35,568 bases of DNA, from assembly GCA_004214065.1 (NCBI GenBank), contig SGZM01000009.1, forward strand, positions 1 through 35,568. Direction: 5' to 3'. Positions within the stretch are counted from its first letter, which is position 1; each line of letters opens with the position of its first letter. Origin of the DNA: Gammaproteobacteria bacterium. Lineage in GTDB: Bacteria; Pseudomonadota; Gammaproteobacteria; Magnimaribacterales; Magnimaribacteraceae. Below, piece by piece: positions 5,066 to 15,138 of this stretch. A program made the position numbers and the translations under genes. The notes beneath the pieces are model-generated. The model was not told the DNA's origin and did not search any database. It saw nothing but the letters and a program-made list of their open reading frames with translations.

Positions 5066-7394
5066 TTGAGGCCATGGGACTTAAAACACCAGTTTCCTCC
5101 ATAGTTTCTATCATCCTTGCTGCTCTGTTGTATCCTATTCTTAACTTCCTTTGTACTGCAGATATAGAGGCTCGTCGAGATTGAGCAACAAATGCAACGG
5201 CTTCATCGTAAAGCTCATCTTTCTCAGCATCATCATCTTCTTCTGAAGCTATGCCAGGCATACCAGCAACAGCACCTTCTTCCTTAGTAACTTCATCTAA
5301 ATATTCTGCTTTTCCTCGCTGTCTCCAATCATCAGCGACCCTCTGTACTTCATCATCGCCCACAAAAGCACCATGAACCCTTTGAGGTATCGATGTGCCA
5401 GGTGCCAGGTAAAGCATATCTCCCTTTCCAAGAAGTTGCTCAGCCCCACCTTGATCCAGTATGACTCTAGAGTCCATCTTAGAAGCAACCTGGAATGCCA
5501 CTCTAGAAGAAATATTTGCTTTTATTAACCCTGTAATTACATCCACAGATGGTCTTTGAGTTGCCAAGAGCATATGAATACCAGCAGCTCTCGCTTTTTG
5601 GGCTATTCTTGCTATCAATTGTTCTGCAGTTTTTCCAACCACCATCATTAAATCAGCCAATTCGTCTACTGCGAGAACTATTAAAGGCAATTCCTCAAGA
5701 TCAGGCGCTTCTTCCCCTTCTTCTGCTTCATTAATTTTCCAAGTAGGGTCTTTTATAGGCTCTCCAGAAGCAACTGCATCGCTAACTTTTTTGTTATAAC
5801 CATTTAAATTTCTTACACCTAGATGTGCCATTAACTTATAGCGTCTTTCCATCTCGTTAACACACCATCTAAGACCGCTTGATGCTTCTTTCATATCCGT
5901 TATCACAGGTGCTAAAAGATGCGGAATATCTTCGTAAACTGAGAGCTCAAGCATTTTTGGATCAATAAGTATCATTCTGACCTGTTCGGGACTGGCTTTA
6001 TATAGAATACTGATGAGCATGGCATTGATAGCCACTGATTTACCAGAGCCAGTTGTACCCGCAACTAATAAATGAGGCATAGAAGCCAGATCAGCAACAA
6101 CAGCAGATCCACTTATATCTTTTCCAAGAGCTACAGTTATTGGGCTCTTAGATTCATCGTAGGTTTTACTTGATAAAACTTCGCTCAACAGTACAGGTTG
6201 TCTATCTTCCCGCGGTACCTCTATTCCAATAGTGTCTTTACCTTCTATAACTTCGACAATTCTGACGCTTGTTTTTGCTAAAGATCTAGCTAAATCTTTA
6301 CTGATGTTAGATATCTGATTAACTTTTAATCCGCTAGGTAATTTGAGCTCTAATCTTATAACAACTGGGCCGGGCTGAATTGATTCGACCTCTATATCGT
6401 TAATGTTGTATTCGGCTAGTTTAGAAACCACCAGCTCTCCTAAACGACGCAAAGAATCTTCGGAGGTTTCATCAGAAAATTCTTGTTTCTTTTCATCTAG
6501 TAAAGAAAGTTTAGGCGGTGAAGAAGGTTCTTTGTATTCAAAAAGCTCAGTCTGTTTTTCTTCTTCTACTCGTTTACTAGTTTCTATAGCTGGCTTTGGT
6601 TGGATTACTTCAGCAGGTTTAATTTGTTCTTTTACCTTCGCAGTAACAATCACTTTCTCTTGTCTTTCAATTTTTTCTTTTCTGAGTTTCTGCTTCTCTT
6701 TAAGCTTAGAAAGGAAATCAGAGAGACGATCTCCAAAGGTTGATCCTGACGAAAGAAGTAGTTCTTGTATTTTGCTTATTAGCGCCACCCATGACACTTC
6801 AAGAGACAGAGTTAAGCCCAATAGGAGTGTGGAAGTAAATAGCAATAGGCTACCTATAAAACTTAAAGGGACTATAAATACAGATGACACTTTTGACCCA
6901 ATCAAACCTCCACCCTCTTGTGGCAGAAAGCTTGCGCCTGGTTCCATAATTAAGGCAAGTAAAGTTGATCCTGATATGACCACTAATAACCAACCTAATA
7001 TTTTTATACCTAAGAGTCCTGTATAGATATCTGAAAATGGAACTTTATTTCTAGATAAGAAAAAATGCCTAATTAATGGCCATAAAAGCCAATAGACAAG
7101 TATGTAAGACATATAACCAAAAACAGTTAAAAGAAAATCACTTAAATAAGCGCCCCAACTACCCACGGCATTGGAAACTTGACTTGTATCTATTGAATCA
7201 CTCGTAAAAACCTGAGTGTTCCAACCTGAATCTCTTGGAGAGAATGTTGAAAGCGCTAGCAAGACAAATACTCCTAAAAATCCTTGGATAATCAACCAAG
7301 AATCTAATATGAGTTTATTGAGCCGTATGCGAGACACCGATACAGCTTGGTTCGATGATTTCTTTGTTGCTTGAGACTTTTTAACCACTAACAA
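5022..7394 (-). CDS. ftsK: DNA translocase FtsK
   Basis: Septal DNA pump that moves chromosome termini and activates XerCD at dif during division. Four or so membrane segments (about residues 30-205) are followed by a short charged linker (about 225-310), the alpha/beta RecA-like motor with Walker A GTTGSGKS (Lys452) and Walker [17 protein letters not shown], and a C-terminal gamma winged helix ([20 protein letters not shown]...) that reads KOPS sites. At 790 residues it is compact because the linker is short compared with the enterobacterial protein. No ATG exists near the N-terminus: translation must begin at TTG 7394 or the nearby GTG 7388, so the exact start is uncertain. Head-to-head with trxB. 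Confidence 0.97.
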
Positions 7395-12360: not shown

Positions 12361-13128
12361 TTATTTTGGTTGCATCCTGATACCACCATCAAGTCTTATT
12401 GTCTCTCCATTTAGAAAAGGATTTTCAACTATATGCTTTGTTAAAGCTGCATATTCTGACGGAAAACCTAGACGTTTAGGAAATTGAGTCATTTCGATAA
12501 GCGGGTTTCTGACAGCATCTGGAGCCATGGCCATAAGAGGTGTATCAAAAATTCCTGGGGCAATTGTATTTATCCTAATTCCCATTCTTGCCAAATCACG
12601 TGCAATTGGAAGAGTCATACCTACCACGCCACCTTTACTAGCGCTGTAAGCAGCTTGACCTATCTGACCATCAAAAGCTGCTACTGAAGCTGTATTTATG
12701 ATTACTCCACATTCTCCATCGGAATTGGGTTCATTATTACCCATTACTACTGCAGCCAGCCTCAATACGTTAAAAGTACCATTGAGATTTATATCAACTA
12801 CTGTCTTGAAGTAATCTAAAGGATGCGCACCATCTCTACCTACTGTTTTGCTGGCGCTTCCAATGCCCGCACAATTTACAACAATATGTAGCCCCTCAAA
12901 TTCTTCAACAGTTTTATCTATAGCTGTTTGAACAGAAGATTCATCAGTGACATTGGCAATTACATAACTTGAATTTGAGCCTAATTTTTCTACAGCGCTT
13001 TTTGCATTATCCTCGTTTAAGTCAAGTAGCATAACCTTTGAACCTGATTCAACCAAAACCTCTGCAGTCGCTAAACCTAAACCTGAAGCCCCACCAGTTA
13101 TTAGGGCCACTTTATTTGAAATTTCCAT
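12361..13128 (-). CDS. SDR dehydrogenase, 3-hydroxyacyl-CoA dehydrogenase type II-like
   Basis: Short-chain dehydrogenase/reductase, 255 residues. The cofactor motif TGGASGLGLATAE with a following acidic LLDLNED suggests NAD(H). The NNAG equivalent is VNCAGIG, and the catalytic set is Asn114, Ser in NTASVAAFDGQ, and Tyr-x3-Lys in QAAYSASKGG. Overall sequence (QIGQAAYSASKGGVVGMTLP, GIFDTPLMAMAP) resembles the HSD17B10 group that oxidises short-chain 3-hydroxyacyl-CoAs. The ATG has a strong ribosome site (AAGGAG). It heads the five-gene minus-strand unit and is divergent from the TorF porin gene. Confidence 0.88.
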   Translation of the reverse strand: MEISNKVALITGGASGLGLATAEVLVESGSKVMLLDLNEDNAKSAVEKLGSNSSYVIANVTDESSVQTAIDKTVEEFEGLHIVVNCAGIGSASKTVGRDGAHPLDYFKTVVDINLNGTFNVLRLAAVVMGNNEPNSDGECGVIINTASVAAFDGQIGQAAYSASKGGVVGMTLPIARDLARMGIRINTIAPGIFDTPLMAMAPDAVRNPLIEMTQFPKRLGFPSEYAALTKHIVENPFLNGETIRLDGGIRMQPK

Positions 13129-13145
13129 TTTTTCTCCTTATGCGT

Positions 13146-13161
13146 CGCAATTTAAGATGCG
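13146..13161. repeat. Imperfect dyad in the SDR operon leader
   Basis: CGCA-N8-TGCG (13146-13161) lies just before the SDR ribosome site; the hexamer ATGCGT/ACGCAT also occurs twice here. It could be an operator or leader hairpin for the SDR operon. The short half-sites make this weak. Confidence 0.2.
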
Positions 13162-13228
13162 TGATATTACACGATAAGTAAAAAAAATTCATGAATAGTA
13201 TCCCCTATAGACCTAAAAAAACCCTCTT

Positions 13229-13245
13229 TGCACGATAAAGGTGCA
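13229..13245. promoter_or_regulatory. Candidate NtrC (GlnG) binding site upstream of TorF porin
   Basis: TGCAC-N7-GTGCA (spacer GATAAAG) is a perfect dyad with the half-sites and spacing of the enterobacterial NtrC consensus. Its centre lies about 50 bases upstream of the candidate sigma-54 -12 element, close for an enhancer but workable. A partial copy of the left half (ACACGATAAG) lies about 60 bases further upstream. Confidence 0.55.
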
Positions 13246-13273
13246 TTTAAGTAAGATTTAATGATATTTAATA

Positions 13274-13290
13274 TGGCATATAAATTGCAT
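13274..13290 (+). promoter_or_regulatory. Candidate sigma-54 promoter of TorF porin
   Basis: TGGCAT-N5-TTGCAT: GG at 13275-13276 and GC at 13287-13288 are separated by exactly ten bases, the defining -24/-12 geometry. The -24 element differs from consensus TGGCAC only in its last base. Transcription would start near 13300, giving a leader of about 30 bases that contains AAGGAG before the ATG at 13331. Confidence 0.6.
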
Positions 13291-13330
13291 ATATAACCGT
13301 GTATTAATTAAAAACTTACAAGGAGTTAGG

Positions 13331-13951
13331 ATGAAAAATCTTATAAAAATTGGGGCCATAGCTATCTTCTCAAGTGCTATGACCTTGCAAGCAGCTGAAT
13401 TCGAAAGCAATGTTGCTCTATCAAATGATTACATTTGGAGAGGAATGACTCAAACAGCTGAAGAGCCAGCAATTTCAGGCGGTTTTGATATCGCAGGTGA
13501 GAATGGACTTTACTTTGGAACATGGGCTTCTAATGTTGAGTTCGGCGATGGCGCTGCACTCGAACTAGACTGGTACGCAGGCTATGCTAATGAACTAGAG
13601 AATGGATTAAGTTACGACTTTGGTTACCTAGCCTATACTTATCCTGGCGAAGATTCTTTAGACTTTGAAGAAATTTATCTCGGACTAGGATACAGTTATT
13701 TTGGATTCACTTTTTCTTCAGGCCAAGATAGCGCACCTGATAATTCTGAGTTGTCAGTAGCACTTGGCGAAACAGGTATCGGTGTAACTTTTGGTGATTA
13801 CGAAGACTATGGAGAATACACATTAATAAGTTATGACCTTCCTGTCGCTATTGCTGGTCTTGGCGTATCTATTGCTTGGTCAGATTTCAGTGCTGAGGGT
13901 TCAAGTGGATTAGCGGATGAAGATACATTCCTAATTACCTTTTCTATGTAA
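13331..13951 (+). CDS. TorF-family putative porin
   Basis: Secreted outer-membrane beta-barrel protein of the TorF/Gcw_chp family (TIGR02001-like), 206 residues. A signal peptide ending ...MTLQAA is followed by the family hallmark ALSNDYIWRGMTQTAEEPAISGG, then alternating aromatic-rich strands (GLYFGTWASNVEF, LELDWYAGYANEL, SYDFGYLAYTYPGE) and a C-terminal strand ending in TFLITFSM. Family members are proposed porins; their substrates are mostly undefined. In many proteobacteria relatives lie beside glnK-amtB, which fits the nitrogen-type promoter elements upstream. The ATG has AAGGAG at good spacing. A strong terminator follows. Confidence 0.88.
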   Translation: MKNLIKIGAIAIFSSAMTLQAAEFESNVALSNDYIWRGMTQTAEEPAISGGFDIAGENGLYFGTWASNVEFGDGAALELDWYAGYANELENGLSYDFGYLAYTYPGEDSLDFEEIYLGLGYSYFGFTFSSGQDSAPDNSELSVALGETGIGVTFGDYEDYGEYTLISYDLPVAIAGLGVSIAWSDFSAEGSSGLADEDTFLITFSM

Positions 13952-14034
13952 TTCTTAACTCCCCGTTAAGTAAGTGATCTAAATCTCCCCATTTAGACAC
14001 ATTAAGGGCCAGACGAAAGTCTGGCCTTTTCTTT
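13952..14034 (+). ncRNA. Structured TorF 3' region, possible 3'-derived small RNA
   Basis: Three consecutive hairpins follow the porin stop: CTTAAC-TCCCC-GTTAAG (13954-13970), TCTAAAT-CTCCCC-ATTTAGA (13978-13997) and the terminator stem (14007-14026). The first two have AT-rich stems and near-identical pyrimidine loops with four C's, complementary to Shine-Dalgarno-like GGGGAG. Tandem C-rich loops plus a terminator is the arrangement of the alphaproteobacterial 'cuckoo' RNAs such as CcsR. There is no expression evidence, so this is a proposal from structure only. Confidence 0.3.
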
Positions 14035-15138
14035 ATTGAGCAAAGGACGAGCATACATCATCAAACATTCCTCAAGAATCTTATCGTGTAAGTGTTCGAA
14101 TCTTTTTTTAAACTTGATAAGTTCTTCATTAGTAAATTTTTGATTACCTTCAAAAGAATTATTTAATTCCGGAAGTAAACTCAAGGCTGCTTCTGAGGAA
14201 GGCCAAATATGGTAATTGGAAATAATTTGTTGTTCTATTTTGTCTGAAAGTTCTTTAATAGAATCTCCATCAAATACAATTGGTTCGCATATATGCAAAT
14301 GGACCCTTCCTTTGTAACCAAATATACCCGAAGCCATTTCTTCTAAATCGCTTTTATTTATTTCTTCATCACTTAAGGCATCTTGATAATCCCAACCCTT
14401 TGCTTTAACTATATCTAATGGATCATATTCATATGATATAGAGATTGGAGTTAAGTTAACCTTTCTTACCCAATCGACGAGGGAAACCTTCTTTCTCTGA
14501 TCAAGGTATAACATCTTTAAGACAGCTTCATCAGAAAAATCATTACCATCATTGGCTCTACCCTCTTTTTGGGCTATCCATATACTTTCATCATCTTTTG
14601 ATAAAGAGGTATTTATGTATGCAGATAACCTTGTAAGTTTTTTTAAAGTTTCTTTTATCCCCTTAATTTCTCTATGAACAATAAAACTTTTATTGAGTCT
14701 CATTAAAGTCTCAGCAAAGCCGCCATCTAAAAGATTATCTCCAATAGCTATTCTGACTGTTTTTCTATCTTTCAAATACAAAAGATAATTTAGGAAGGCA
14801 GGATCTAAGGAAATATCTCTGTGATTGCCCATAAAGAGAGTGGGCTTATCAGATAAATTATCTTCTCCTGAGAAAGAAAATCCATCAGTAGTCTTGATTA
14901 TCATTTGGCTTACTAAGGGTGCCATGCATTTTTGAAATTCTTCTATCGAACCGCAGGTTGAAAAAGTATCTAAGAACTTTCGTTTAATGTATAAATTTAA
15001 AAGTGCTGAAAAGTATTTACTTAGTTCAGGAAAAAGTAGATTAGCTAAGTAGTTATGAAAGTCCTTATCGACAGCTAATTCCTTAATTTTGGAAGATACT
15101 TGATCATCCGAATAAGAACTTATCTCACTAAAATCCAT
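14002..15138 (-). CDS. PlsC/GPAT-like acyltransferase
   Basis: Glycerolipid-type acyltransferase, 378 residues. The acceptor motif is FMGNHRDISLDPAF: His106 and Asp112 are separated by five residues, one more than the usual HX4D. Other blocks follow the family order: VRIAIGDNLL, FIVHREIKG and IWIAQKEGRANDGND (the EGxR-like motif), then TPISISYEYDP. The N-terminal 95 residues have no clear membrane helix, so it may be peripheral. The expected role is acylation of glycerol-3-phosphate or a lysophospholipid. It starts four bases after the alpha/beta hydrolase stop. Its last codons (...KARLSSGP) are formed by the opposing TorF terminator stem. Confidence 0.8.
   Translation of the reverse strand: MDFSEISSYSDDQVSSKIKELAVDKDFHNYLANLLFPELSKYFSALLNLYIKRKFLDTFSTCGSIEEFQKCMAPLVSQMIIKTTDGFSFSGEDNLSDKPTLFMGNHRDISLDPAFLNYLLYLKDRKTVRIAIGDNLLDGGFAETLMRLNKSFIVHREIKGIKETLKKLTRLSAYINTSLSKDDESIWIAQKEGRANDGNDFSDEAVLKMLYLDQRKKVSLVDWVRKVNLTPISISYEYDPLDIVKAKGWDYQDALSDEEINKSDLEEMASGIFGYKGRVHLHICEPIVFDGDSIKELSDKIEQQIISNYHIWPSSEAALSLLPELNNSFEGNQKFTNEELIKFKKRFEHLHDKILEECLMMYARPLLNKEKARLSSGP
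14007..14034 (+). terminator. Rho-independent terminator of TorF porin
   Basis: GGCCAGAC-GAAA-GTCTGGCC is a perfect eight-pair stem with a GNRA tetraloop, followed by TTTTCTTT. It acts on the plus strand; the minus strand has no T-tract after the stem. It lies entirely within the last codons of the opposing acyltransferase gene. Confidence 0.92.

Follow-up and report, generated by a model that had tools for sequence, protein, structure and literature searches.

A predicted NtrC/sigma-54 promoter in front of the single-gene torF porin unit of a SAR86 genome

The DNA analysed here, called the window, is a stretch of 35,568 nucleotides from a gammaproteobacterial genome whose closest named relatives are genomes of the SAR86 cluster. 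Its forward strand carries torF (13331..13951), which encodes a TorF/Gcw_chp putative porin of 206 aa with a signal peptide and starts with an ATG at 13331. Upstream of the gene and on the same strand, an NtrC-type enhancer dyad, the perfect TGCAC-N7-GTGCA TGCACGATAAAGGTGCA (13229..13245), is followed after 28 bp by the sigma-54 -24/-12 element TGGCATATAAATTGCA (13274..13289). The GG (13275-6) and the GC (13287-8) of this element are ten bases apart, and it matches the consensus TGGCAC-N5-TTGCW at 10 of 12 positions. Since the C of the -12 GC is base 13288, the sigma-54 geometry predicts a transcription start 12 bases further, at 13300 on the forward strand, with the dyad centred at about -63. 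Direct reading shows a ribosome-binding site, AAGGAG, at 13320..13325 (forward strand). The original prediction had placed the perfect dyad upstream of TGGCAT-N5-TTGCAT with GG and GC ten bases apart, which was correct to the base, and it had also rightly named a start near 13300 and a good ribosome site before the porin.

The neighbours of torF both lie on the minus strand, a short-chain dehydrogenase (SDR) gene divergent to it (12361-13128) and an acyltransferase gene convergent to it (14002-15138). A terminator-like hairpin is located 3' of torF on the forward strand (14004..14029). When a sigma-70-like promoter was sought at 13080-14060, none was found. We conclude from this, from the hairpin and from the orientation of the neighbours that torF is a single-gene unit. 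A block 5' of the dyad, at 13150-13222 (ATTACACGATAA ... TAGTATCC ... ACTAAAAAAA), is also conserved within the genus and may be part of the promoter of the divergent dehydrogenase gene.

The protein was assigned to its family with 93.6 bits against PF09694 (cut-off 24) and 126.2 bits against TIGR02001 (cut-off 47.15), where only roughly the first half of the profile is matched. The N-terminus resembles a signal peptide, and an AlphaFold2 model of moderate confidence, calculated from a shallow alignment of 14 sequences, is a barrel of 12 strands (pLDDT 73.6, pTM 0.66). Judged by these two features, TorF is predicted to reside in the outer membrane. KdgM, VhGalP and NanC (4fqe, 8xua and 2wjr) were among the closest solved small porins (Z 15-17.6, identity 8-11%), and VIA-align superimposed the model on KdgM with Z 17.6 and an rmsd of 2.4 over 155 residues. 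All three are small monomeric porins, and the twelve-stranded barrel of the TorF model is of similar size. They form basic pores for acidic sugars, whereas the rows of basic pore residues of the KdgM family are missing from the strongly acidic TorF. Mature TorF contains no lysine, no histidine, a single arginine and 33 aspartate and glutamate residues, corresponding to a net charge of -30 to -32 or -17.3 per 100 residues. Its side chains hold 0.086 nitrogen atoms per residue, compared with 0.177-0.387 for all other proteins of the window, and among 1736 sampled SAR86 ORF starts the 11 lowest places are all taken by TorFs. TorF proteins outside SAR86 are less poor in nitrogen, with a median of 0.162.

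We then compared torF with its relatives in the class, where PF09694 is present in 142 of 274 sampled members. Many of the class loci read have torF near glnK, often together with amtB, behind a -24/-12 element of 10-11/12 and an NtrC-like dyad. The expectation that torF genes often neighbour glnK-amtB was thus borne out for many Gammaproteobacteria; there torF often heads a glnK-amtB operon, usually with a near-consensus sigma-54 promoter and an NtrC-like dyad as in SAR86, whereas the SAR86 torF is monocistronic. In these operons the dyad usually lies about 65-130 bp ahead of the -24 element, compared with 26-28 bp in f1, the family of the source genome. A published example is the nlmA-glnK-amtB operon of Herbaspirillum seropedicae, whose expression depends on NtrC and rises strongly when nitrogen is limiting; membrane extracts prepared under nitrogen limitation contained NlmA (PMC3023670). 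NlmA is probably a TorF. With its NtrC-type control and its membrane-protein product, nlmA resembles what is predicted for the SAR86 torF, but it is operonic with glnK-amtB whereas the SAR86 torF stands alone. The glnAp2 promoter of Escherichia coli has paired enhancers at distal positions, near -108 and -140. It has in common with the SAR86 torF the half-sites, the GG-N10-GC, a GAFTGA regulator and a very similar recognition helix, but torF has one proximal site near -63. The regulation is therefore not new in kind; the SAR86 variation consists of the separated single-gene arrangement and the proximal enhancer. A literature search for TorF as a porin, with NtrC or in SAR86 found nothing on TorF function.

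Two readings of what the porin does were weighed. In one, TorF is a cation-selective pore for NH4+ or small amines, built like the KdgM/NanC barrels but with the charge inverted. The nearest solved structures, the strongly negative net charge with its one arginine and the linkage of torF to amtB across the class point to it, but acidic loops could also explain the charge and the model is only moderately confident; we hold this reading to be a little short of an even chance. In the other, the nitrogen link of TorF is mainly elemental sparing: TorF is a generic abundant porin that is cheap to make when nitrogen is short, and not a channel for nitrogen compounds. Sparing would account for the low side-chain nitrogen content and for the bottom ranks of the TorFs among the SAR86 ORFs. 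However, the class-wide torF/glnK-amtB linkage fits an uptake role, and outside SAR86 the composition is less extreme though the promoter type is the same, so that we regard sparing as possible but rather doubtful. Taken together, the acidic and nitrogen-poor character of the modelled barrel suggests a path for cations such as ammonium.

The promoter motifs are rare in their surroundings. Allowing up to one mismatch, the torF dyad is found in the window only at the site itself, with shuffled sequences giving 0.38 matches per window, and the pattern TGGCAYN{4,6}TTGCW has one further match besides torF, at 5484-5500 within ftsK. We searched 121 genomes of the order with a composite pattern of the inner half-sites, 18-48 bp and GGCAY-N6-TGC. 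The entire 1.13-Mb assembly of the source genome contains it a single time, at torF; the reversed control pattern gave no match there or in any of the 121 genomes. Four other strict -24/-12 matches in the assembly fall within ORFs. When the regions upstream of torF in f1 were resampled, 0.15% of them had a -24/-12 element of at least 10/12 and 1.8% had a dyad of at least 8/10.

The assembly of the source genome, which is 73% complete, has torF as its only PF09694 gene. The genes rpoN, ntrB and ntrC, whose absence would have spoken against the original prediction, are all present. There is one copy of rpoN, and ntrC lies downstream of the genes for NtrB and a GlnII-like glutamine synthetase in a glnII-ntrB-ntrC cluster; the synthetase scores below the GlnII cut-off. 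NtrC was identified by the NCBIfam model TIGR01818 (697 bits, cut-off 558.6). It has the GAFTGA loop and the C-terminus LLGWGRNTLTRKIKELG, which we take to be very close to that of enteric NtrC, and its C-terminal region is matched by the structure 1ntc, the NtrC DNA-binding domain. The genome therefore combines NtrB and NtrC with the GAFTGA loop and a recognition helix of the NtrC type. No clear sigma-54 activator other than NtrC was found in the assembly, which has two weaker PF00158 matches in one 757-aa ORF, and the other RpoN-containing genomes examined also have one clear activator each. A perfect dyad TGCACTATAGTAGTGCA of the same type as at torF is located upstream of the glnII gene of this genome. 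Two glnK-amtB pairs, each with a sigma-54-like promoter, were found away from torF. The idea that the regulation was kept without the ammonium genes accordingly needs correction: torF does stand alone under its own promoter, but the ammonium genes are present elsewhere in the genome.

The conservation of the promoter was followed across four families of the order, which were numbered for this analysis as f1 (7 genera), f2, f3 and f173. In f1, the -24/-12 element ahead of torF reaches at least 10/12 at all 25 readable loci. GG-N10-GC, whose loss would likewise have spoken against the original prediction, is retained throughout the close orthologues. In 24 of them, a dyad of at least 7/10 precedes the -24 element by 26-28 bp, and in the remaining one by 49 bp; in several other f1 genera the dyad is degenerate (7-8/10). 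In f173, the -24/-12 element was present at 20 of 20 torF loci read, and most sampled genomes have a full-length RpoN. The families f2 and f3 have kept torF, but full-length RpoN is absent and so is the element (0/11 and 0/31, 0/42 together). The co-occurrence of RpoN and the element over the four families gives strong support, at the level of sequence, to the use of sigma-54 at torF. Since the association spans four clades only, it may reflect one or two independent losses. The TorFs of the RpoN-less SAR86 genomes are as acidic and nitrogen-poor as the others, which makes both traits independent of the sigma-54 promoter.

A recognisable dyad was sought in the short intergenic region 5' of torF in f173, and none was found. 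The prediction that both motifs precede torF in related genomes thus held for f1, whereas f173 has the element without the dyad. We conclude that NtrC need not be the torF activator in f173 and that the support for the NtrC part is best in f1. An altered recognition helix of the f173 NtrC (R to K) was considered as the cause of the missing dyad and dropped, since some f173 genomes have perfect dyads elsewhere; in two of them (G315 and G363) these precede a clear -24/-12 element.

The f173 loci also bear on the alternative that another activator or signal drives the sigma-54 promoter, with the dyad bound by a different regulator or marking the divergent SDR gene. Besides the element without the dyad, this view can draw on the divergent arrangement of torF with the SDR gene in the window and with apparently the same kind of gene in f173. 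Against it, NtrC is the sole clear sigma-54 activator found. Moreover, the half-sites and the spacing of the dyad are those of NtrC sites, and the dyad recurs before glnII and keeps a fixed distance from the torF element. We therefore consider another activator improbable. Chance matches within AT-rich intergenic DNA can be set aside as practically negligible and already refuted, for although single sites of either type do arise by chance, as the four strict matches inside ORFs illustrate, the composite is unique in the genome with an empty reversed control, is conserved over 7 genera and is absent where RpoN is absent.

Several observations were made beside the torF promoter. In two f3 genera (g9 and g236), all that matches rpoN is an open frame of 78-91 aa covering only the DNA-binding end with the RpoN box (L336:1856-2092, L337, L338 and L339); in one of these genomes (G210, L336) the frame has an lptB-like and an mgtE-like gene on either side. 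In the RpoN-less genome G310 (L356), NtrC reads GAFKGA instead of GAFTGA. Nine genomes of its genus g231 (L370-L378) share conserved NtrC-like dyads, which were located 5' of a glutamate-synthase-like gene in the three that were read. The GAFKGA loop together with the conserved dyads suggests that NtrC may act there independently of sigma-54. L376 (1560-1660) and L370 have tandem hairpin-like repeats (GGCATATCACATGCC and ACGCATTGTCCATGCGT) in the stretch that separates the dyad from the glutamate-synthase-like gene. TTAAAAG or TAAAAGG comes after each repeat, and an Rfam search of these repeats found no family at the gathering threshold.

A second class of intergenic sigma-54 sites was seen in about 15 f1 genomes, each site preceded by an NtrC-like half-site, in most cases at 27-29 bp (L122 from 1926 onward, which is G000:C1:18425 in the assembly of the source genome, L056, L124, L134, L137, L150, L157, L158, L163, L182, L185, L187, L191, L194 and L195). 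These sites precede two conserved tiny ORFs of about 39 and 44 codons with hydrophobic stretches, and a small RNA driven by orphan sigma-54 sites was dropped as an explanation because of these ORFs. The ATG of the first tiny ORF is 13 bases past the C of the -12, which implies a nearly leaderless mRNA. At L123, L132, L153, L160, L166, L178 and L058, a peptidase-like gene (MSYCLAIKV...) is preceded by a further conserved sigma-54 site, and a dyad is located about 100 bp 5' of that site. By eye the product of the gene resembles Anbu, a name given from the impression of the sequence.

For torF, we propose that the sigma-54 promoter and the single proximal NtrC enhancer switch on the monocistronic gene when SAR86 is short of nitrogen, and we put the probability of this reading at about 85%. 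At low glutamine, NtrB would phosphorylate NtrC, and the phosphorylated NtrC would bind the dyad near -63. Its GAFTGA loop, which is present in the protein, would contact the RNA polymerase-sigma-54 complex at the -24/-12 element and open the promoter. A short-leader mRNA would then run from about 13300 to the hairpin near 14004, and its product would be exported to the outer membrane. There, TorF would probably widen the route taken by ammonium or by other small nitrogen-containing cations and may feed the AmtB proteins, whose genes have sigma-54-like promoters in the same genome. In SAR86, torF and glnK-amtB lie apart, but the control would have been kept. Both the induction of torF by nitrogen starvation and the cargo of the porin are what we infer from the DNA and protein sequences. 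One point against this reading is that the fixed spacing of 26-28 bp at torF is short for an activator that acts by looping. The original prediction is supported with two corrections, that glnK-amtB lies elsewhere in the genome and that the dyad is not universal in SAR86. A broader proposal holds TorF to be the outer-membrane counterpart of AmtB, namely a KdgM-like pore that is acidic, selects for cations and admits ammonium or amines. It would be under NtrC/sigma-54 control whether linked to glnK-amtB or alone, with the enhancer fixed near -63 in SAR86. This proposal is speculative, and we think it unlikely to hold in full.

SAR86 is an abundant uncultured lineage of the surface ocean with small genomes and little known regulation. 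Our results point to a compact NtrC/sigma-54 regulon in one SAR86 family, with a predicted outer-membrane pore among its members, and metatranscriptomes that already exist can be searched for it. Where SAR86 families have no full-length RpoN, the torF promoter has been lost, and this gives a clean natural test of how a promoter functions in bacteria that are uncultured. With the class-wide linkage of torF to glnK-amtB and the NtrC-type promoters, a role of this uncharacterised porin family in the path of ammonium becomes directly testable.
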